Below, piece after piece: positions 3,182 to 20,750 of a stretch of DNA of 22,028 nucleotides. The stretch is from a virus. Positions within the stretch are counted from its first letter, which is position 1, and every line of letters starts with the position of its first letter. The stretch is taken from IMG/VR virus record IMGVR_UViG_3300042559_000137, positions 1 through 22,028 of that record; one strand, written 5' to 3'. A model generated the notes under the pieces. That model was not told the DNA's origin. It ran no database searches and saw nothing but the letters and a program-made list of their open reading frames with translations. The translations under genes and the position numbers were made by a program.

Positions 3182-3447
3182 TACTCGACTTCAAACTCTT
3201 TGACTGTTTGGAACTGCGCCTTACTTACGAAACCAATGCCCAATAGAGTATCTACTCGATTAGATGCATCAGCATAATCAATATATGTGCCATCATCGAA
3301 CCACCACCAGCGATCTAGACCAAGAATCCAACGTGGTTCGCGGCGATACTCGACCAACCACTTACCATCTGTTCGATGAATACGTAACTTTGTAATTCGA
3401 ATATGGTCAAACTCTACACCATATTCGTTGGCGACTAACTCGCTCAT
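3181..3447 (-). CDS. small conserved phage protein of unknown function (88 aa)
   Basis: 88 residues, basic and aromatic, with a striking run of three tryptophans in LDRWWWFDDGTYIDY near the middle and a C-terminal segment GFVSKAQF. No known domain recognised. I place the start at the ATG at 3447 rather than at a GTG four codons upstream: this ATG has an ideal GGAGG ribosome site five bases before it, and it overlaps the primase stop in the classic ATGA arrangement. It is therefore translated directly after the primase. Co-translation hints at a replication-related or early role, but nothing in the sequence shows it. Confidence 0.75.
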   Translation of the reverse strand: MSELVANEYGVEFDHIRITKLRIHRTDGKWLVEYRREPRWILGLDRWWWFDDGTYIDYADASNRVDTLLGIGFVSKAQFQTVKEFEVE

Positions 3448-4478
3448 ACTTTCCTCCACATGGCATACTTTGCTTTTGCCGATAGACCGTTGAATGTATT
3501 ATGATTTATAATACTCTGAATTTCATCTGTTGTCATTCCATTTTCAATCATCTCATTAATATCTTTTCCTGGAACATCTGGCCAGATAACCATCTTATAT
3601 CCCATATCAATATACTTATTCATCAACTTACCAACATCTCTGTTCTTTGGTTGGTTATCGAAAATAATTGTTATGTTTTCTTTTGGGATCGGGAGTTGAT
3701 CAATCTTTCCGAAAGAGGTTCCAGCACAAGCAATAGAATTATGCAGAAAAAGGGAGTCAAGAGGCCCTTCGACGACGAATACTTCTTGCGTAGGGTCGAC
3801 CTTATCCAATCCAAAAATCGAGGGCGCATCTTCATCTACCTTAATGTTAATATAACGAAGTGACTCGCCTCTGATTCCGCGAAGGCTAACAACAAGTAGT
3901 TTGCCAGTGCCATCAAAAAAAGGAATCGCGAGTCTCGGTTCCGATGTAATAATCGATTCTTTGTATTTGTCATTAAGTTGTATGACATCTTTAACATTAG
4001 GTATGAAATACAACCGATCAAAAGCATCGCGAGGAATTTTGCGGTTAATAGCATATTGGACTGCCTCATTATCATCTGGTAGTGTATCGAGACGATCCAT
4101 AATCGAGTCGATTAGTTTTGGTTCAGGTTTCTTTGTAAACTTTGGTTCTTCAAACTTAAGAACTTGTTCGACATTCTTATGTGCATTGGCACGACCATGC
4201 CCACCATCAGCATAACGCTCAACGACATACTGACTGTATTGGTTGGGATCAAAGTTCTTCAGGAAGGTTCCGAAGTGATGACTAGCGCCACATTTGTGAC
4301 ACTTGTAATACAGATCCTGCTTACCACGATAGAAATACCCACGTGCTCGTTTCTTATTACGCTGTGAATCACCACAGAGGGGACATCTGCAGTTGAATAG
4401 ATCCTGTGATTTTTTCTTGAAGTTCTCGAGGCGATGCGCGATCGCGTTCAGATACTTGATGTCAATATATAAACTCAT
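3444..4478 (-). CDS. 61: DNA primase, T4 gp61-type
   Basis: 344 residues, the size of T4 gp61. The N-terminus has the zinc-binding module of DnaG-type primases: Cys32-x2-Cys35 (CPLCGDS) and Cys60-x2-Cys63 (CHKCG), separated by a basic loop. The TOPRIM catalytic core follows: a motif with acidic Glu237 in VFVVEGPLDSLF, then Asp274 in IIFDNQ, then the acidic patch WPDVPGKDINEMI (Asp301, Asp306). It synthesises short RNA primers for lagging-strand replication, acting with the gp41-type helicase encoded at 19362-20750. In T4 genes 41 and 61 lie close together; here about 15 kb of head, lysis and accessory genes separate them. A GAGG ribosome site sits about 12 bases before the ATG, within a small hairpin. 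The stop overlaps the next gene (ATGA). Confidence 0.93.
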   Translation of the reverse strand: MSLYIDIKYLNAIAHRLENFKKKSQDLFNCRCPLCGDSQRNKKRARGYFYRGKQDLYYKCHKCGASHHFGTFLKNFDPNQYSQYVVERYADGGHGRANAHKNVEQVLKFEEPKFTKKPEPKLIDSIMDRLDTLPDDNEAVQYAINRKIPRDAFDRLYFIPNVKDVIQLNDKYKESIITSEPRLAIPFFDGTGKLLVVSLRGIRGESLRYINIKVDEDAPSIFGLDKVDPTQEVFVVEGPLDSLFLHNSIACAGTSFGKIDQLPIPKENITIIFDNQPKNRDVGKLMNKYIDMGYKMVIWPDVPGKDINEMIENGMTTDEIQSIINHNTFNGLSAKAKYAMWRKV

Positions 4479-4490
4479 AATATAGTTATA

Positions 4491-4503
4491 CCTCGAAACG
4501 AGG
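4491..4503 (-). promoter_or_regulatory. small hairpin covering the primase ribosome site
   Basis: Minus-strand CCTCGTTTCGAGG is a perfect 5-bp stem with a 3-base loop in the 39-base gap before the primase gene. Its 3' arm contains the only Shine-Dalgarno-like GAGG for the primase (12 bases from the ATG). If it folds it could lower primase translation. No T run follows, so it is not an intrinsic terminator. Function is inference. Confidence 0.3.
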
Positions 4504-4517
4504 GAAAAGTAAAGCTT

Positions 4518-4985
4518 TTATTGGATAAATTTCATAAGCAATGGAAGTATCTTGGTGATGATAGCACCGATGACAATACCACCACCTATCATAAGATACT
4601 TGGTTTTTTCCAATTTGTCAATACGATTTTTATTTTTTTCTTCTTCTTTATCAACAGAACCCTTGAGGTCTCTGATAGCAGCAAGCATCTTGTCTTCAGT
4701 TGACTGAATCTTTGCTTCAAGTTCACGAGTCGTTGTTGTGATACGCGAATGTAACTCGGCGTTACTTGCCTTGGTTTCTTGTCTGTGCACTTCTAAACTC
4801 TCATAAATGTCTTCGTTGACTGTTTCTTGTGCGTCGAGTTTAGTTTCATGGACAGCGAGCATCTTATTGATGCAGTTGGAAACATCACCAATCTTTTCGA
4901 TGGCGAGATCGAGACGACTGAACACGACCTGAATTTGCTTCAGATCGTGCTCAATTACCGCGACTTTTGTTTCCAAAGATTCCAA
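4518..4985 (-). CDS. tail-anchored coiled-coil membrane protein, XhlA-like
   Basis: 155 residues: a long helical, charged coiled-coil region (about residues 5-127) ending in RIDKLEKTK, then one strongly hydrophobic segment (about 130-150, LMIGGGIVIGAIITKILPLL) and a short tail. This is the topology of the XhlA hemolysin/holin-associated family of phages, which acts at the inner membrane with holin and endolysin; the family match is by shape and wording, not by alignment. The start is a TTG at 4985 with an AAAGG ribosome site 8 bases upstream, directly touching the stop of the EF-hand gene. It lies in a row with the endolysin and a two-helix holin candidate, supporting a lysis role. A structural or membrane-anchoring role remains possible. 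Confidence 0.7.
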   Translation of the reverse strand: MESLETKVAVIEHDLKQIQVVFSRLDLAIEKIGDVSNCINKMLAVHETKLDAQETVNEDIYESLEVHRQETKASNAELHSRITTTTRELEAKIQSTEDKMLAAIRDLKGSVDKEEEKNKNRIDKLEKTKYLMIGGGIVIGAIITKILPLLMKFIQ

Positions 4986-5156
4986 TTACTTCGCCTTTGG
5001 TTTGCGGACTTTTTTTACAACTGCCTTGACTTCTTTGACCTTTGCTTCTGCCTTGTCAACTGCTGCAGTAATCTCAGCGAGATCGACCTTGCCGTCCTTG
5101 TTAGCATCAACAAATCCGAAGAGTTTCTTTAGTGCGTCTTTAATTTGATTTAGCAT
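4986..5156 (-). CDS. single EF-hand calcium-binding mini-protein (56 aa)
   Basis: 56 residues starting at the ATG at 5156, chosen because GGGGA lies about 7 bases upstream and because it follows the endolysin stop by four bases; a longer reading would run back into the endolysin gene. The protein carries a textbook EF-hand loop, DANKDGKVDLAE (residues 17-28), with Asp/Asn/Asp at positions 1, 3 and 5, Gly at 6, Asp at 9 and Glu at 12. An amphipathic entering helix (NQIKDALKKLFGFV) and an exiting helix flank it, then a Lys/Ala/Val-rich tail ending RKPKAK. It has no signal peptide or membrane helix. Sitting between the endolysin and the XhlA-like protein, it may regulate or assist lysis in a calcium-dependent way, or bind calcium for another purpose; this is inference. 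EF-hands normally pair, so it may dimerise. Confidence 0.85.
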   Translation of the reverse strand: MLNQIKDALKKLFGFVDANKDGKVDLAEITAAVDKAEAKVKEVKAVVKKVRKPKAK

Positions 5157-5160
5157 ATTC

Positions 5161-6342
5161 TTATCCCCATGCTGCGTATTGTTTAGTTTTCTTGATACGG
5201 TCATCTAGACCATGCGTCCCACCGTTTACACGACGAGTAATCTGACCGATAACTGCATCAGTTACACCCTTGTCAGCGATTGCGAATAGACCGTTCTTAT
5301 TGAAGAACCACAGTGCTGATTCGAATGCTAGTTCAGTTGCGACGATGTCTGGATTTGTCAGAACATCAGGACGTTTAATGTCCTTGGCGAATGCAGTATA
5401 GTTATCCTTACCAGTCAACTGGATCGGACCACGACCACGGAACTTATATCCATCGCCTGAAGATTCTGGACCATTGCCCATACGATTAGCATAGACCTTG
5501 TTGGCAATCTTTTCTGGTTTGCGAGCATATCCAGCAGTCGATGCGAGTGTTGGGAAATACTTCTTGAAGATACCATTCAGACCCTTGTCTGAGTAGTTTA
5601 GATTCTCAGAGAATACCTTAAATCCACCTGACTCGTGAGCACACTGTCCGAAGAAGTGTGCTGCTTGAGCAGTCGACAACTTGAAGTAATCTTTTGCTGC
5701 CTTAAATGTTCCTGGACCCCACTTACCATCAGCGCCGACACCACACTTCGCTTGAAGTGCTGCCATTGGACCAAGACCTGTTACAGCAGGAGGTGCTGCC
5801 TTCGGTGCTACCTTAGCAACCTGAGCAACTGTTTCTAGAACAGGAGCACCTGCTTCTTTGGTTGTGCTTGGATCGAAGTCCTTAACAGGAGTATACTTTG
5901 TGCCACCTGCCTTAGACTTAGTAGCAACCAGACGCTGCTTGCGGTTTCCGCCTTCTTTCTTGATTGAAGCATGTACCCAACCAGAGTTCTTATCACCAGC
6001 GGCATAGAATTCTAGGATGACTTGGTCAAACTCTAGATTGTCAGCAACCCAGTCAGCAACCTTCTTATTGTCAACACCCTTTACTTCAAAGTCAATCGCT
6101 TGACCATTAACGTGCTGGGAAGTTGCCGAACCACCAACTGCCTTATTGACAAGTGGTGCACGATACGAAGAGTTGATTGTTACTGGACCAAACTTGGCAC
6201 GAACAGGTTCGAGAATCTTTTCGCAGCAGTAGCGCATGTTCTCAATGTGTGCAGGAGTTGGTGTGTTAGGAATGCCAAGACGCTTTGCGGTTGGCGATAC
6301 AATCATTTCTGCGAGAGTAAAATGTTCAGTTAGTTGTGTCAT
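5161..6342 (-). CDS. modular endolysin: M15 peptidase fused to GH19 muramidase/chitinase-like domain
   Basis: 393 residues with two cell-wall hydrolase domains. Residues 1-126 are a peptidase M15 domain of the D-Ala-D-Ala carboxypeptidase type: zinc ligands His77 and Asp84 in SQHVNGQAIDF and His124 in GWVHAS, plus SSYR at 58-61. An Ala/Pro-rich linker (about 150-190) leads to a short peptidoglycan-binding-like segment, GVGADGKWGPGTFKAA (201-216). Residues from about 222 onward are a glycoside hydrolase family 19 domain, with the catalytic Glu237 in CAHESGGF and the substrate-cleft motif GYKFRGRGPIQLTGKDNY. The enzyme should cut both peptide and glycan parts of peptidoglycan. No signal peptide, so release needs a holin; the neighbour upstream (6353-6808) is a candidate. 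Ribosome site AAGGAG. Members with only one domain are commoner; the double architecture is notable. Confidence 0.93.
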   Translation of the reverse strand: MTQLTEHFTLAEMIVSPTAKRLGIPNTPTPAHIENMRYCCEKILEPVRAKFGPVTINSSYRAPLVNKAVGGSATSQHVNGQAIDFEVKGVDNKKVADWVADNLEFDQVILEFYAAGDKNSGWVHASIKKEGGNRKQRLVATKSKAGGTKYTPVKDFDPSTTKEAGAPVLETVAQVAKVAPKAAPPAVTGLGPMAALQAKCGVGADGKWGPGTFKAAKDYFKLSTAQAAHFFGQCAHESGGFKVFSENLNYSDKGLNGIFKKYFPTLASTAGYARKPEKIANKVYANRMGNGPESSGDGYKFRGRGPIQLTGKDNYTAFAKDIKRPDVLTNPDIVATELAFESALWFFNKNGLFAIADKGVTDAVIGQITRRVNGGTHGLDDRIKKTKQYAAWG

Positions 6343-6352
6343 TATCTACTCC

Positions 6353-6808
6353 TTAGAATGGACCGAAGTCGTCGTCGCTGTCTTTATACTTGTCGACCGC
6401 TGCCATCAGTTTGATTTCAGTGTCTGCTTCGATCGACTCCGCCTTGGCATGTTCAGTATGCGCTTCGGCGATATGTTTATAGTCAGTCTTGCCCATTTCT
6501 TGGACCTTGACGTTAGGATCGAACTCAGAAACTTTCATGTTCATCATGGTAGCAAACGCACCAACGAAGGCACCAACAATCATCGAGAATGCTGGACCAA
6601 TAATCTTGAAGATCTCATTGTTATCGATCATTGCGTTTGGCATAAACAATCCGATCAACATCATGATCACAACTGAAAGCATGATAGATCCCAGCGTAAT
6701 CGCTGCCATCTTCATGATCATGATCTGGACTTTACCCTTTTCGATCTCTAGTTTTTCTAGAGAGTCGATATTGTTAGATACCTTTACGAAATCCAATAAT
6801 CCCTTCAT
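6353..6808 (-). CDS. two-helix membrane protein, candidate holin
   Basis: 151 residues with two hydrophobic segments, about residues 29-56 (rich in Met and Ile) and 67-90, joined by a short loop PNAMIDNNEIF. The first 28 residues and the last 60 are charged and soluble, the tail ending in an acidic stretch (KDSDDDFGPF). Two membrane helices with both termini probably cytoplasmic fits a class II holin, and the gene lies directly before the endolysin (10 bases apart), the usual holin position. The long charged tail (about residues 91-151) is larger than in most small holins and could regulate timing or bind the endolysin. Hole formation is inferred from topology and position only. Confidence 0.6.
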   Translation of the reverse strand: MKGLLDFVKVSNNIDSLEKLEIEKGKVQIMIMKMAAITLGSIMLSVVIMMLIGLFMPNAMIDNNEIFKIIGPAFSMIVGAFVGAFATMMNMKVSEFDPNVKVQEMGKTDYKHIAEAHTEHAKAESIEADTEIKLMAAVDKYKDSDDDFGPF

Positions 6809-6809
6809 A

Positions 6810-7358
6810 TTACTTCCTTCTTACCAATACAGGAGAACTTGAGTTGTTCTTCTTTTTATATTTTTTCTGTTGTCTTTTGGTGATTCCAGGTTCTGCTTGG
6901 TTTGGTTTGGTTGGATGCGGAATACCAATCCCAGCAACTCCACCACCAGCAACACCCATCTCTTCCATAAACTGTTTAAACGAACTAATCTTTCCTGCCT
7001 CTAGTTCTTCGGCGAGGTCTTTAACGTCTTGGCGTTCTTGTGTCATATAAAATACTTCCTCTAATACGTCATCATCATATTCTATCTGTTCCCTTACTAG
7101 AGCAACTGCAGTAGCAAACGATAGGAAGTTCTTATTTTCCAGCGGAATCTTTTCAATGATTCTTTTTAATCTAAATACCATTCTATGAAGCAAACTATAT
7201 GCCTCTTGTTCTTCCGTGGTATTTATCTCATTCTCTTTCTTCAATCGATTACCATGCTTATCAATCAACCCCAGACGAAATGCATCTTGTTGATCGAAAG
7301 GTGTAGTCAACAACCTTAGAATTCGATATGTTATTAGTGCATCTACAAATCTAGACAT
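6810..7358 (-). CDS. conserved T4-like marine phage protein of unknown function (182 aa)
   Basis: 182 residues, mostly helical. The N-terminus (MSRFVDALITYRILRLLTTP) and DAFRLGLIDKHGNRL resemble a protein I recall as widespread in marine T4-like phages and cyanophages, usually unnamed; no function is established to my knowledge. Residues 125-135 (SSFKQFMEEMG) look like the capsid-targeting motif found at the N-terminus of T4 internal head proteins, here placed internally, followed by a Gly-rich linker GVAGGGVAGIG and a very basic tail (KRQQKKYKKKNN). This suggests a head-associated, possibly processed protein, but that is inference. Its start overlaps the previous gene by 8 bases. Confidence 0.72.
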   Translation of the reverse strand: MSRFVDALITYRILRLLTTPFDQQDAFRLGLIDKHGNRLKKENEINTTEEQEAYSLLHRMVFRLKRIIEKIPLENKNFLSFATAVALVREQIEYDDDVLEEVFYMTQERQDVKDLAEELEAGKISSFKQFMEEMGVAGGGVAGIGIPHPTKPNQAEPGITKRQQKKYKKKNNSSSPVLVRRK

Positions 7359-12273: not shown

Positions 12274-14456
12274 TACTTTTTCTTTCTTGTTCTGCTGTTC
12301 TTAATTCTGGATTGCTCCAGTTTACGAACTGCTGGCATGACTCTGACAGATAGGCGAGCAACCATTGGTGCCATACGCTTTATCTGTGCTTCGAGGCGTG
12401 TCTTTTCAGCAGAAGATACTGAAGAAATATCTCTATTGCGCAGTAGTCTCTTGTAAACCATACGACGAGCAGCACGAACTGATCTCGATTTAAGTTTTTC
12501 TGGTGAAGACACACGCTTGATTGCAATATTTCTTGCCATCATTCGACGACTCTTAGTGCGCATCGCATTGAATTTTTTCTTGAGGCGACCAGAAGGTGTA
12601 ATACCTTCCTCTAGATCTTCACCCTCATCTTCTTTTTCAGGTGTCTCATCATATTCAATTTCATCTTCGTCATAGAGATCTACTAAGTCATCCCATGAGA
12701 GAGCAAGAACATCTGCTTCTAGTTCTTTTTCAAATGCTTCTTCGTCGAAATCTTGAAAGCGAATGTCTTCATCATCATGCGAAATTACTGGTGAGATCTG
12801 ATCACCTGAACCCTTGTGCGCTTCATAGGAATCAACGTGGTGTGTTCCCATTTCAGCAGTGTCGCACATCTGGCAGCAATCAGGTGTCCCGCAATTCTCA
12901 TGCGCTTCTTCAGCAATAGTCTTCATAAATTCTGAGTGAGATTTATGAGCACGCTTCTGTAGTGCTTCTTTTTCAATAGAAGTCTTGGCAGAGTTATACT
13001 TCGACATGAAAATGTCAGCATGATTGGGAGCAATCGTATGATGCTGACCATCTTGGAAGTGGACCTTGGATCCAATGCTTACTGCTTTACGCAGTTGCAT
13101 TACAAGGTGCGGTGCTTCCTTTGCCTTTTCTGCTTCTTTTTTCTTAGCAAGAGTTTTCTTTGCTCTTGCAATATTCTTTGGATCTGCTAGTGTTTGTCTA
13201 ACCTTTGCTTGGAATTTAGCACGTGCTTCAGCACCCTTGGCAGAGATCTCAGCAAGATAACCTTCCTTGATACCACCGCAATACTGTGTTGTTACATCAT
13301 CGTAACGTGGATCGAAAGTTGGGATCTTGTCTGCTGCCATTGATTCTTGTCCAGGAGTCATAGCAGCATACTTCTTGCGTAGTTCTGGGCGACCCCATTC
13401 ATTGCTCTTACCGAGTTCTTCTTTGACATTACCCTTAGTATCAAACTTCTTAGGTTTTCCACCCTTTGCTTTGAACGCAGCAATTGCATCTGCAGTTGAG
13501 GTTGAAGATCCAGGCATCACACCCTTTTTCTCTGCTCTATCCATTGCTATATACTGCTTTCTTGCAGCGAATGGATCTTTGCCTGCTTTGCGATAGTTAT
13601 TGTATTCGTCAACCTGCTCAACTTCTTCTGGAAGCACGGAAGACTTAGTAACCTTTGACTTGAACATCTTATGATCAACACCGACTCTCTTAGCAGCAAC
13701 CTTGTGAGCATGAGCAGTGTTCTGTGCCTTAACGTGAACAGAACCAGCAGCGACTGCTTTACCAGCGTGTTGCTTAGGGAAGTCTACCTTCCACATACCG
13801 TATGCTTCTTCAAGTTCAACTTCTTCGTGCATCTCTGGTTTATATTTCTTTTTGAATTCAGAGAATCTGCTGGTGATGTTTTTGTCAGTTGGATTATCAG
13901 CGATATGGCGACCATGGGGAGAGTCTAGGAAATGCTTCACCATTACGTTTGGTTTCTTCGCATCTTGAAGATGTCCAGCATCACCCACCAGTTTCTTAGC
14001 ATAACGGTGCATGGCGGAATATCTCTTATCTTTCTCAGCATCGTCGCGTGCTTCGACAGTACCATGGTAACCATAACCCTTGTTACCTGAAGTAACACGA
14101 GTCAATGCTTCTTCGATCTCTAGCACCTTGGCATTCAATGGTTTGCGACCTTCTTTCTCAGTTGCTTTTTTATATGCAACATCCATATCTTCGTCTTTGT
14201 CACTCTCTTGTGGTTTCAGACCAGGATTTGGATGATAACCATAGTCACCCTCTTCTGGGAATCCCTTTCTAGGATACTCCTTAGAATCTGCTTTTTCTGC
14301 AACTACTGCCTTTGCTTTGGCAATAATATCGGTTGCTTCAGGCACACAGTTAGGAACCTTGCGTCCACCCTTCTTCTTCATGCCTACCATTTCGTATCCC
14401 TTCCAGCAAGGATCGTCTTGTTTTCCAGGTTTCCCGATATACTTTTTTTCTGCCAT
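12273..14456 (-). CDS. long modular head-interior-type protein (727 aa)
   Basis: 727 residues made of unlike short modules, with no enzyme motif seen. In order: DPCWKGYEMVGMKKKGG (15-31), a block common in aquatic phage proteins; PEEGDYGYHPNPGLKPQ; a histidine-rich module about 128-200; a module beginning AYGMWKVDFPKQHAGKAV (218-285); a basic region; a Cys/His cluster ENCGTPDCCQMCDTAEMGTHH (520-540); a very acidic stretch 561-617; and a strongly basic C-terminal domain 618-727 (RLKKKFNAMRTKSRRMM, then RKLEQSRIKNSRTRKKK), likely DNA-binding. Junctions LEIEE116/A, VELEE217/A and DLEE617/G fit the gp21 cleavage rule. I infer a scaffold or internal protein that is cut during head maturation, releasing the basic C-terminus onto DNA. 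Coupled to the i-spanin stop by TAATG. Confidence 0.72.
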   Translation of the reverse strand: MAEKKYIGKPGKQDDPCWKGYEMVGMKKKGGRKVPNCVPEATDIIAKAKAVVAEKADSKEYPRKGFPEEGDYGYHPNPGLKPQESDKDEDMDVAYKKATEKEGRKPLNAKVLEIEEALTRVTSGNKGYGYHGTVEARDDAEKDKRYSAMHRYAKKLVGDAGHLQDAKKPNVMVKHFLDSPHGRHIADNPTDKNITSRFSEFKKKYKPEMHEEVELEEAYGMWKVDFPKQHAGKAVAAGSVHVKAQNTAHAHKVAAKRVGVDHKMFKSKVTKSSVLPEEVEQVDEYNNYRKAGKDPFAARKQYIAMDRAEKKGVMPGSSTSTADAIAAFKAKGGKPKKFDTKGNVKEELGKSNEWGRPELRKKYAAMTPGQESMAADKIPTFDPRYDDVTTQYCGGIKEGYLAEISAKGAEARAKFQAKVRQTLADPKNIARAKKTLAKKKEAEKAKEAPHLVMQLRKAVSIGSKVHFQDGQHHTIAPNHADIFMSKYNSAKTSIEKEALQKRAHKSHSEFMKTIAEEAHENCGTPDCCQMCDTAEMGTHHVDSYEAHKGSGDQISPVISHDDEDIRFQDFDEEAFEKELEADVLALSWDDLVDLYDEDEIEYDETPEKEDEGEDLEEGITPSGRLKKKFNAMRTKSRRMMARNIAIKRVSSPEKLKSRSVRAARRMVYKRLLRNRDISSVSSAEKTRLEAQIKRMAPMVARLSVRVMPAVRKLEQSRIKNSRTRKKK

Positions 14457-14968
14457 TATTTTTTCGCTTTCTTGTTTAGTTCGTCGATCGCTGTCTTGTT
14501 ATCCGCAATCCATTTCTGAAGAGCAATCAATTGCTCGGAGTTTGCTTGACAGGTTGCGTAGTTTCCGACGATGGTGAAGAGGGCATCAGTGTCTTTAAAC
14601 CCTGAGGAGGACGCATCAGCACTTCTGGTGGCGTCGGCATCACTGCCTGTGGCACTAATGTCGTGCGTGAACACCCACCCATTAGAAAGCACAGACTGAC
14701 TAGGCACAACAGTTTTAGCGGCATCGCGGTAGACATATTCTTTTTCCCTAATTGTATTTACACGGTCAACATATTGAGTCACCACTTCAGTGGAGATCTC
14801 TGAATTTTTCTTTTCCATATCTGCAGTTAATGTTGCATTCTTAGCAGCAAATCTTTGCAGTTCCACCTCAGCATAAGCGGATCCCTTCATGTAACCATAA
14901 ACAAAGACACCAATAAATGCTGCAGCAATAGCGAGCAACTTATATGGCAATGGAATCATTCTGAGCAT
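14456..14968 (-). CDS. i-spanin (Rz-like inner-membrane spanin subunit)
   Basis: 170 residues from the ATG at 14968, chosen over an in-frame TTG five codons earlier because GAGGG stands 8 bases before it. There is one N-terminal membrane helix (about 8-27, YKLLAIAAAFIGVFVYGYMK) and then a helical, charged, coiled-coil-like periplasmic domain (about 33-85), a Ser/Asp/Ala-rich middle and a helical end (QLIALQKWIADNKTAIDELNKK). That is the topology of Rz-type i-spanins, which link inner and outer membrane with an o-spanin and fuse them as the last step of lysis of Gram-negative cells. The identification rests on this topology together with a lipoprotein gene nested in another frame (14527-14736). 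It sits about 8 kb before the endolysin, apart from the rest of the lysis genes. Confidence 0.85.
   Translation of the reverse strand: MLRMIPLPYKLLAIAAAFIGVFVYGYMKGSAYAEVELQRFAAKNATLTADMEKKNSEISTEVVTQYVDRVNTIREKEYVYRDAAKTVVPSQSVLSNGWVFTHDISATGSDADATRSADASSSGFKDTDALFTIVGNYATCQANSEQLIALQKWIADNKTAIDELNKKAKK
14527..14736 (-). CDS. o-spanin (Rz1-like outer-membrane lipoprotein), nested in the i-spanin gene
   Basis: 69 residues in a different frame, wholly inside the i-spanin gene. Lys8 precedes a hydrophobic signal (LLCLVSLCFLMGG) and a lipobox-type Cys22 in FLMGGCS, expected to be lipidated and sorted to the outer membrane. The mature part is short and proline-rich (PTPPEVLMRPPQG), as in lambda Rz1. 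An AGGGA ribosome site lies about 9 bases before the ATG; an internal ATG four codons on (14724) lacks one. With the i-spanin it would form the periplasm-spanning complex. Fully nested Rz1 genes are typical of lambda-like phages; T4 itself has overlapping but not nested spanin genes. The combination of signal, lipobox and proline content makes chance unlikely. Confidence 0.85.
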   Translation of the reverse strand: MSTAMPLKLLCLVSLCFLMGGCSRTTLVPQAVMPTPPEVLMRPPQGLKTLMPSSPSSETTQPVKQTPSN

Positions 14969-14991
14969 ATCAATTTCCCTCAATTATCCTA

Positions 14992-18756: not shown

Positions 18757-18785
18757 ACTATACTATACTTATTACGAGAAGTCAA
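18757..18785 (-). promoter_or_regulatory. sigma70-like promoter for tRNA-Arg
   Basis: On the minus strand TTGACT (18785-18780) and TATAGT (18762-18757) are separated by exactly 17 bases; each hexamer has five of six consensus bases. The -10 box ends 12 bases before the tRNA 5' end. The -35 box overlaps the TGA stop of the dioxygenase gene. It is probably a host-read early promoter for the tRNA and possibly the genes after it. Confidence 0.7.
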
Positions 18786-19372
18786 GTCTTTTCTCGAAAT
18801 CTATCTCGTTCAGGGTAAACAAACCATCCTGTTGCAATATATTTTTTCCCGACTAGATCTGGATTTGCTCGATGAACATGAGTGTATGCAGCGGGCCAAA
18901 TAACCAGTGTTCCAGCAGTAGGCGTGAATGCTAAATCCTGATATTTAAATTCGGTTTTCCCGCCTTCTTCAACATCATTCAAGTATAACATCCAAACTGC
19001 AAATCTTATTGCAGATTCTCTTCCCGAACCTTGTTCATGATGCCATCGATGAAATCCTCCGCCCGTCTCAGAGCGCTGGAATTTCCATCCTGGCGACAAA
19101 ACCTCATACACTGATTTTCCAGTCGATGGATATTTGGTATTATACTTGCGCCATGCACGTGCCAACGCTTCCATTATCTTATCTTCTGATGGTTTCAATG
19201 AACCATAACAACTGGTAAATATATTCCAGTCTGTCCTAGACGCATCATCAGACAACACACAACTATTCCCAGGATCTGGGCGTGAAATAATATCATCGAC
19301 TCTATCACATGCCTCGGCGCATTCCTCGGCAGTCAATACGTTCGGATATAGTTCTATAAAATTAGAAGTCAA
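18782..19372 (-). CDS. 2-oxoglutarate/Fe(II)-dependent dioxygenase, prolyl-hydroxylase-like
   Basis: 196 residues from a TTG at 19372. Iron ligands are visible as His-x-Glu (H111, E113, in FHRWHHEQG) and a distal His167 in HVHRA, with Lys177 ten residues on (GKKYIATGWF) to bind 2-oxoglutarate; TLVIWPA precedes the distal His as in prolyl-4-hydroxylase-type enzymes. Such proteins are common in T4-like cyanophages and hydroxylate protein or nucleic-acid targets, mostly unknown. Glu in place of the usual Asp in the iron triad is allowed in the family but unusual. An in-frame ATG at 19432 would overlap the helicase gene by 71 bases; I favour the TTG, which overlaps the helicase stop by 11 bases and has GGGAG about 10 bases upstream. 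The stop overlaps the tRNA promoter. Confidence 0.85.
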   Translation of the reverse strand: MTSNFIELYPNVLTAEECAEACDRVDDIISRPDPGNSCVLSDDASRTDWNIFTSCYGSLKPSEDKIMEALARAWRKYNTKYPSTGKSVYEVLSPGWKFQRSETGGGFHRWHHEQGSGRESAIRFAVWMLYLNDVEEGGKTEFKYQDLAFTPTAGTLVIWPAAYTHVHRANPDLVGKKYIATGWFVYPERDRFREKT

Positions 19373-20750
19373 ATTTAGACAACTCCCTCGTACGAGATCC
19401 AGATGGAGTCCGCTCAAAAACAGGAACAGCATCTTGTCCTGAATCGGTGATACCTTGTTGAGCAGACAACTCTAGATCGAACAGTTTCATTTTCCCACGG
19501 TCAATACCAACCATGAACCTTTTATTTATAGCAGGGTCATTATACCGATTCTTCAACTGCTTGACCATAAGTTGCCCCATGTTCTCAAGTTCTTCCGTCG
19601 AGATTAGAGCAAACATCAAGTCAGCAGTTGCTGGTAATCCGAATGACTCCGAAGTGTCAGTCAAGTCAACATCACTGTTTGCATATCCACCACGAGTAGT
19701 TTGAGTGGCAGATACAACAGGAAGGTCAAACTCAACTGCGAACCCACGAAGTTCTTCAGCGATTGCCTTCACATATGTATAAGAGTTTACACCAGCACCT
19801 GCTTTAAAACGACTGGATGCACAGATGTTAAGATAATCTACGAAGATAATATCAGGAGCAAAGTTGCGCTTCAGTTGCAGTTCGTTTAGTAGTGCTTTGA
19901 AGTGACCGACATGCGCACTGGCAGTTGGATACTCCTTGATGATCAACTTACCTTCAGTCTTTTTCTTAATCTTATCGATACGATTATCGAACATGGACTT
20001 GGACAGATCTTTAAGATCCTGGATATTAACGTTCATCAAGTTGGCATCGATGCGTTCAGCGATGCGTTCTTCTGCCATTTCCATGGTGATATACAGAACA
20101 TTCTTACCTTGCCCCAGCGCACCTGCTGCCATGTGACACATGAACAGCGACTTACCAACGCCAGTGCCAGCAAGCGCAATGTTTAGCGTCTTATTTGGCA
20201 GACCACCATTAGTAATCTTGTTGAACATGTCAAGATCGAACGGCAACTTGTTCTCAACACGATGGTAGAAGTCATAACGTGATTCCGAGTTGTCAAGATA
20301 ATCATGCCCAACGTTATTGTCGAAACAAACACTCAACGCATCCTGTAGAATAGAAGGAATACCATCTTGAGTGTGTTGCTTATCATCACCATCGATAATC
20401 TGAATCGACTGCATGATTGCATTGTAAACTGCCTTGTCCTTACAGAACTTCTCAGTTTCTTCGAGCAACCACTTGGCATTCACATCAAGAGAATCATCTA
20501 GATGTGTCAGTTTTTCATTGATATTTTTAAAATCATTTTCGTTTATGCTACGGTCATTCTGCACCGCAATTTCAATTGCTTCAACTGACGGAAGCGAATT
20601 ATACTTCTCGATAAAATCTTTTGCGTAATTGAAAATCTTACGCTCGGAAGAATCATGGAAATATTCTGGTGTTATGAATGGTATAACTTTACGAGCATAG
20701 TCTTCATCAGAAAACAACTTACTCAGTATAATCGTCTCGATCTTCTGCAA
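19362..20750 (-). CDS. 41: replicative DNA helicase, T4 gp41-type (DnaB superfamily)
   Basis: 462 residues, the size of T4 gp41. An N-terminal helical domain (ETIILSKLFSDEDYARKVIPF, TPEYFHDSSERKIF) is followed by the RecA-like hexameric helicase core: Walker A AGTGVGKS (194-201), catalytic Glu224 in YITMEMAEER, Walker B DIIFVDYLNI with Asp305, and the sensor SATQTTRGGY with Gln350. It unwinds DNA 5' to 3' on the lagging strand and works with the primase at 3444-4478. The start codon is TTG at 20750: AGAGGA lies 8 bases before it, and the protein then begins in register with gp41 relatives. It overlaps the zinc-knuckle gene by 32 bases. Confidence 0.94.
   Translation of the reverse strand: MQKIETIILSKLFSDEDYARKVIPFITPEYFHDSSERKIFNYAKDFIEKYNSLPSVEAIEIAVQNDRSINENDFKNINEKLTHLDDSLDVNAKWLLEETEKFCKDKAVYNAIMQSIQIIDGDDKQHTQDGIPSILQDALSVCFDNNVGHDYLDNSESRYDFYHRVENKLPFDLDMFNKITNGGLPNKTLNIALAGTGVGKSLFMCHMAAGALGQGKNVLYITMEMAEERIAERIDANLMNVNIQDLKDLSKSMFDNRIDKIKKKTEGKLIIKEYPTASAHVGHFKALLNELQLKRNFAPDIIFVDYLNICASSRFKAGAGVNSYTYVKAIAEELRGFAVEFDLPVVSATQTTRGGYANSDVDLTDTSESFGLPATADLMFALISTEELENMGQLMVKQLKNRYNDPAINKRFMVGIDRGKMKLFDLELSAQQGITDSGQDAVPVFERTPSGSRTRELSKFDF

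Follow-up and report, generated by a model that had tools for sequence, protein, structure and literature searches.

A 56-residue protein with a single EF-hand loop is encoded beside the endolysin gene in the window, which is the whole analysed stretch of 22,028 nucleotides of the virus record IMGVR_UViG_3300042559_000137 (IMG/VR), from a T4-like phage. This raises the questions of whether so small a gene is real, whether it belongs to the lysis machinery, and what an EF hand might do there. Lysis timing is set by holins together with small regulators, the known signals being membrane depolarisation and, in T4, superinfection acting via antiholins. If a separate EF-hand protein is conserved in a lysis module, a divalent ion becomes a further possible input to this timing.

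The EF-hand mini-protein gene

The preliminary description of this DNA had reported a 56-residue gene with a perfect EF-hand loop, and both gene and loop hold up. Residues 17-28 fit the PROSITE pattern PS00018 (12-residue loop with acidic or other oxygen ligands at positions 1, 3, 5, 9 and 12 and Gly at position 6). Nothing else in the window fits this pattern in any of the six frames, and it arose in 1 of 10,000 composition-preserving shuffles of the protein (1e-4). EF-hand models of Pfam match the protein with E-values of 5e-5 to 7e-4 overall, the best being EF-hand_5 (4.9e-5) and EF-hand_1 (7.8e-5). Both scores lie just under the gathering cut-offs (23.0 vs 25.9 bits and 22.4 vs 25.4 bits, respectively), and the protein of the close relative L058 passes that of EF-hand_5 with 26.1 bits. 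EF-hand proteins also head the phmmer matches among PDB sequences (SCaMC-1, 1.2e-6), and the AF2 model, of low confidence (mean pLDDT 59), consists of a helix at residues 2-16, a loop, and a helix at residues 26-50.

Across 13 distinct 56-codon versions, the gene has a dN/dS of 0.069, indicating strong purifying selection. The constraint is strongest not in the loop (0.067) but in the amphipathic N-terminal helix (residues 2-16, 0.007), the tail being the least constrained part (0.16). A chance ORF or chance motif at this position is ruled out by the dN/dS, the shuffle rate and the single match in the window. The plus-strand reading of the same interval is broken by stops, and a 72-residue version from a start at 5204 was dropped because the extension overlaps the end of the endolysin gene and relatives share the ATG at 5156.

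The protein resembles EF-hand domains (Pfam EF-hand_1/5/6) in its canonical 12-residue loop (D1, N3, D5, G6, D9, E12) and predicted flanking helices, but differs from EF-hand and dockerin proteins in being a single unpaired hand in 56 residues, with an amphipathic anchor, a basic tail and Pfam scores below the gathering threshold. Single loops of the dockerin type are matched by distant relatives (Dockerin_1, 9.7e-10 in L068), but no cohesin context was seen here, and the window protein has no Dockerin_1 match, one loop only and no dockerin repeat pair. Binding of Ca2+ at physiological levels is moderately likely.

The lysis operon of the window

The EF gene lies on the minus strand in the order g6810-TM2-endolysin-EF-DUF7201, which is followed by a gp61-type primase (Table 1). 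Its ATG is 4 nt past the endolysin stop, and its own stop abuts the DUF7201 gene, which has a TTG start that aligns with an ATG in the relative L006. The position between the endolysin and a membrane protein was correctly given in the preliminary description; the sole evidence for the XhlA-like label that it gave the latter is a weak match to the PHROG 'hemolysin' family phrog_937 (1.3e-4, C-terminal half only), and the family assignment is DUF7201.

Table 1 Features of the lysis operon, the EF-hand mini-protein and the spanin locus of the window
Feature	Position	Strand	Evidence or remark
Conserved operon gene of unknown function, upstream end (g6810)	6810..7358	minus	phrog_18642
TM2, two-TM hairpin protein, candidate holin	6353..6808	minus	151 aa; TM 37-55 and 69-87; upstream of endolysin
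Endolysin, M15 peptidase + GH19	5161..6342	minus	393 aa; Pfam Peptidase_M15_3 4.3e-19, Glyco_hydro_19 7.5e-11; PHROG endolysin 2e-62
EF-hand mini-protein gene	4986..5156	minus	56 aa; translation MLNQIKDALKKLFGFVDANKDGKVDLAEITAAVDKAEAKVKEVKAVVKKVRKPKAK*; EF-hand matches; conserved in relatives
Putative membrane-surface anchor, amphipathic N-terminal helix	5109..5156	minus	residues 1-16; hydrophobic moment, dN/dS, AF2 helix 2-16
EF-hand loop DANKDGKVDLAE	5073..5108	minus	residues 17-28; PS00018 match
Basic C-terminal tail KKVRKPKAK	4989..5015	minus	residues 48-56; charge of slot proteins
DUF7201 coiled-coil protein	4518..4985	minus	one C-terminal TM (131-149); PF23831, E 7.3e-15
gp61-type DNA primase	3444..4478	minus	downstream of DUF7201; phrog_47 5e-76
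i-spanin (Rz-like)	14456..14983	minus	phrog_8821 'Rz-like spanin' 2.7e-8; separate locus in window clade, 8 kb away
Probable embedded o-spanin (Rz1-like lipoprotein)	14527..14736	minus	out-of-frame ORF inside i-spanin gene; lipobox LMGGC

The Bacillus PBSX lysis module consists of XhlA, a coiled coil with a C-terminal TM, the two-TM holin XhlB, and a peptidoglycan hydrolase. The present operon is similar in that DUF7201 is like XhlA, the adjoining TM2 is like XhlB, and a peptidoglycan hydrolase is present, but the XhlA similarity of DUF7201 is the weak phrog_937 match and TM2 has no holin match. We know of no EF-hand member of the XhlA/XhlB module, and a search of the open literature on XhlA/XhlB returned no result.

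The placement of DUF7201 directly before the gp61 primase in the window (3444-4985) is found in many T4-like phages, and the adjacency also occurs in Kyanoviridae and Emdodecavirus isolates. The PHROG family phrog_451 matches both DUF7201 and the primase, suggesting a fused or mis-joined family. In sister phages the EF gene is preceded by the i-spanin homologue. In L276 the o-spanin homologue, a lipoprotein with weak matches to Rz1-type PHROGs (best 2.1e-4), has a gene of its own, which immediately precedes the EF gene. Elsewhere in the window, a 2OG-Fe(II) oxygenase gene (18782-19432) overlaps the 3' end of a helicase-like ORF (19362-20750).

Linkage to lysis genes across relatives

A scan of viral contigs with the EF protein gave 37 loci, 31 of which (L001-L031) belong to close relatives that, where long enough, have the order g6810-TM2-endolysin-EF-DUF7201-primase. 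Viral contigs were also searched with the endolysin, TM2 and DUF7201 as seeds and the neighbours inspected. With all loci pooled, including some from EF-seeded scans although the seeds were mainly neighbouring genes, 56 of 85 distinct TM2 genes share their cassette with an EF-loop mini-gene. Thirty of these have the arrangement TM2-endolysin-EF-DUF7201 and 24 have spanin-EF-TM2(-DUF7201), while TM2-EF-endolysin (L195) and spanin-EF-TM2-endolysin (L276) occur once each. The occurrence of the mini-gene beside spanin and TM2, or TM2 and endolysin, in gene orders other than that of the window bears out the earlier suggestion that it belongs with lysis genes. Because the pooled loci come partly from EF-seeded scans, the cleanest count is that of the TM2 scan (n = 82, L195 and L196 added), in which the EF gene is present at 64 loci and missing from 11 of the gp43-TM2-endolysin type, while the other 7 break off within the endolysin region. 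To deal with redundancy among contigs, each distinct DNA sequence was counted once; the lineages are still not independent.

Counts of loop residues in a motif-selected set were not treated as evidence of conservation; proteins were instead picked by gene order alone, regardless of motif. The preliminary description had named absence or unlinking of the gene in close relatives as grounds against its proposal; this check did not refute it, and all 29 distinct intervals between endolysin and DUF7201 carry the EF loop. The slot between spanin and TM2 has it in 24 of 27 distinct cases, the exceptions being L136, L292 and L289, the last with no gene in the slot. At DUF7201-primase loci without TM2, an EF-loop gene was found in 0 of 45 cases in the flanks examined, several of which are short, and in the phage of locus L107 the endolysin stands alone, with spanin-EF-TM2-DUF7201 about 26 kb away on the same contig. 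These two results indicate that the EF gene tracks TM2 and not the endolysin or DUF7201.

It is thus very likely that the EF mini-protein is part of the lysis module, and in uncultured T4-like relatives it probably represents a small component of the lysis machinery that had escaped description. Every lysis-linked member was found on an uncultured contig. A tblastn search of 50,697 phage records (INPHARED) with the EF protein and three relatives gave either no match or an unrelated match to a Lactobacillus tail protein. No EF loop was present in the regions examined near DUF7201 in the Pelagibacter phages HTVC008M and Mosig, the Methylophilales phage Melnitz-3, Caulobacter phage Cr30, S-TIM5 and Sinorhizobium phage phiM12. 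No description of the mini-protein was found in Pfam, PHROGs or NCBIfam.

The EF protein of L094 is about 40% identical to that of the window, while its TM2, endolysin and DUF7201 neighbours are 91-97% identical, which suggests allele exchange. In L006 (5187-7374) and L137 (6215-8616), two receptor-binding or fibre-like genes are inserted within the lysis operon, after the EF gene in the former and before it in the latter, and the first inserted genes of the two share a similar N-terminus (VEKLGGRNV.EYVGNAG).

TM2 as candidate holin

TM2 is a candidate for the holin of these phages, being a small two-TM protein of the lysis cassette that lies beside an endolysin or spanin in most loci. Searches of Pfam, PHROGs, NCBIfam and BFVD gave it no significant holin-family match, the nearest signal being a weak one to Phage_holin_3_6 (E 0.011) for the homologue in L282. 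The AF2 model, of low confidence (62), has two long helices (17-55 and 63-88); a BFVD fold search found one uncharacterised phage protein of 80 residues, and a scan of genome contigs found one distant match, on an Armatimonadetes MAG contig. Two distant homologues in unrelated phages nevertheless stand in lysis cassettes: in MW202520, Rz/Rz1-like genes and an annotated lysozyme flank an unannotated 73-residue ORF, and in L282, a MAG contig, a 78-residue ORF adjoins genes for an M15 peptidase and a GTA_holin_3TM holin. Conservation of the EF-hand protein in the lysis module would single out TM2 as the likely holin of a large, uncultured group of T4-like phages whose lysis genes lack annotation.

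TM2 of the T4-like phages is extended at its C-terminus by an acidic part with a mean net charge of -7.0. In the window protein this tail is long and ends in DDDFGPF, and 74 of 74 distinct proteins end in [DE]DxGP[FH]. About 20 TM2 genes, on contigs that are fragments, stand in the gp43-TM2-endolysin arrangement with the EF gene absent nearby, and the 58-kb contig of locus L124 has no EF-hand match anywhere. These TM2 proteins still have the acidic DxGPF tail, indicating that the tail does not serve the EF protein solely. Near TM2 in L292 (3439-3678) and L194 (1523-1774) is a hydrophobic protein of 79-83 residues (GSPSSKR...GITGAEKFAPK) without a family match, possibly a second holin-like protein.

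Architecture and topology of the mini-proteins

The mini-proteins follow a constant plan of a putatively membrane-binding N-terminal element, an EF loop, a helical Lys/Ala-rich stretch and a Lys/Arg-rich basic tail. Most members have an amphipathic helix as the N-terminal element, that of the window protein with a hydrophobic moment of 0.59 (shuffle mean 0.25; 1% of shuffles reach the observed value). In L184 and L195 its place is taken by a clear TM helix. One EF loop is usual and two are rare, as in L195. The slot homologues of L136 and L292 keep the helix and basic tail but have no loop, so that calcium is not essential to every member of the family.

Among 37 distinct slot proteins, the last 12 residues have a mean net charge of +6.2 and a minimum of +4, and the EF mini-protein lacks a signal peptide. 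Under the positive-inside rule, basic segments of membrane proteins stay on the cytosolic side, so that the combination of basic C-terminal tail and N-terminal anchor suggests an EF loop facing the cytosol and not the periplasm. Residence at the membrane surface on the cytosolic side is accordingly fairly likely from these sequence features. The preliminary description had pointed to the high calcium of the periplasm and the cell exterior and to a lysis factor that senses membrane leakage; calcium sensing in the periplasm, together with the contact to the GH19 domain for which it proposed a test, now appears less likely than cytosolic action on membrane proteins.

A possible role in holin regulation

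A tentative model, the best of the readings considered although as a whole slightly less likely right than wrong, is that the EF mini-protein is a dedicated small accessory of a TM2/DUF7201 holin system, acting in the cytosol with an ion as modulator. The N-terminal helix would hold the protein against the inner membrane from the cytosolic side, where the EF loop would bind one divalent ion, most likely Ca2+, at the membrane surface. The Lys/Arg tail would contact an acidic partner, most plausibly the C-terminal tail of TM2, a contact suggested by the opposite charges of the two tails, and the coiled-coil, tail-anchored DUF7201 would be the third member of the system. The mini-protein could then be a cytosolic holin regulator, either antiholin or trigger helper, although the direction is speculative. 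At low cytosolic Ca2+ it would tune TM2, and once the membrane leaks, Ca2+ entering via early lesions might change the helix-loop-helix and synchronise the final opening. That the protein modulates the holin in a Ca2+-dependent manner is doubtful on present evidence, and the full version, in which a calcium-gated micro-protein reads the first Ca2+ leak and opens the two-TM holin synchronously, is unlikely; if true, it would represent a widespread feedback trigger of lysis in uncultured T4-like aquatic phages. Several findings run counter to the model: single EF loops are often weak binders, L136 and L292 have no loop and L289 has an empty slot, about 20 TM2 genes lack a nearby EF gene yet keep the acidic tail, look-alikes occur away from lysis genes, TM2 has no holin-family match, and both AF2 models have low confidence.

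The same lysis accessory could instead carry a structural metal, the loop being a permanently filled Ca2+ or Mg2+ site that folds the tiny helix-loop-helix and senses nothing. The joint purifying selection on loop and helix agrees with this, as do the loop-less L136 and L292, which are expected if the loop is one shaping option among others, and the resemblance of distant relatives to dockerin-type loops, which are structural Ca2+ sites. In the cytosol, however, a weak Ca2+ site would be mostly empty before lysis, although filling by Mg2+ is possible, and the reading is somewhat unlikely overall. It is rather improbable that the anchored EF-loop/basic-tail protein is a general type recurring in many contexts, its lysis position being mere operon neighbourhood. 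Such proteins do lie by SOD/UvsE/Fe-S, RNase H/PhoH or Dps genes on contigs without a TM2 or M15 endolysin match, but they share little with the lysis-linked proteins beyond the loop and a Lys-rich tail and may be convergent, and the link to lysis outlasts several rearrangements, including one in which the endolysin has moved away.

Two further readings, each very unlikely, connect the protein with its other neighbours. An AT-hook-like tail (RGRKPKAK) might bind DNA, the protein and DUF7201 together keeping the primase or phage DNA at the membrane, in keeping with the strongly basic tails and the adjacency of DUF7201 and gp61 primase in many phages. This is at odds with the absence of the EF gene from all 45 DUF7201-primase loci without TM2, with its place between TM2 and endolysin in L195, where the stretch examined has no primase or DUF7201 match, and with the lack of an AT-hook family in the Pfam scans. 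Alternatively, the mini-protein might bind or regulate the GH19/M15 endolysin by way of periplasmic calcium after the membrane opens, as its position directly after the endolysin in the window clade would allow; in L006 it even stays with the endolysin, two genes apart from DUF7201. Most close endolysin relatives of the other clade nevertheless have no EF gene alongside, the endolysin is mostly elsewhere in the 24 spanin-EF-TM2 slots, and the missing signal peptide and basic tail favour the cytosol.

Among known systems, the T4 antiholins RI and RIII are small proteins that tune the holin, RIII acting on the cytosolic side, and neither has an EF hand. The mini-protein would likewise be a small T4-like phage protein that tunes a holin, but no sequence similarity to RI or RIII was seen in the family searches and only the mini-protein has an EF hand. 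Calcium also enters phage lysis through the EF-hand-like sites of CHAP endolysins, which are situated inside the enzyme, whereas the present protein is separate and enzyme-free. Open literature that pairs EF-hand, endolysin and holin is largely concerned with endolysin domains, and no description of a stand-alone EF-hand lysis protein was found in it. In the MetSV paper, the EF-hand gene is that of the host and a lysis role is argued against (PMC9694453).

Other EF-loop proteins of T4-like phages

The view that single EF hands of this quality are uncommon in phages is partly right, since similar anchored proteins with single or double EF hands occur far from lysis genes on other T4-like contigs (L032, L034, L037 and L064-L069). 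As these look-alikes share so little with the lysis-linked proteins, common descent of the two is uncertain.

A second EF/dockerin-like loop (DANKNGK[IV]DGHD, DVNHNGKLDAQD) occurs in a protein of 127-265 residues encoded in L198 (1052-1435), L199 (1012-1422) and L203 (856-1314), which belong to the window clade, and in L201 (1083-1880). In the window-clade contigs the gene is flanked by a portal-like and a prohead-protease-like gene, a position that corresponds to gp67/gp68 in T4. In the other clade, a protein of 83-105 residues with EF-hand motifs is encoded near the endolysin on the opposite strand, adjoining an HSP20 gene, in L200 (1271-1522), L103 (5238-5489), L118 (5427-5687), L141 (6737-6988) and L276 (6142-6459); its signal-peptide-like N-terminus suggests that it is possibly periplasmic.
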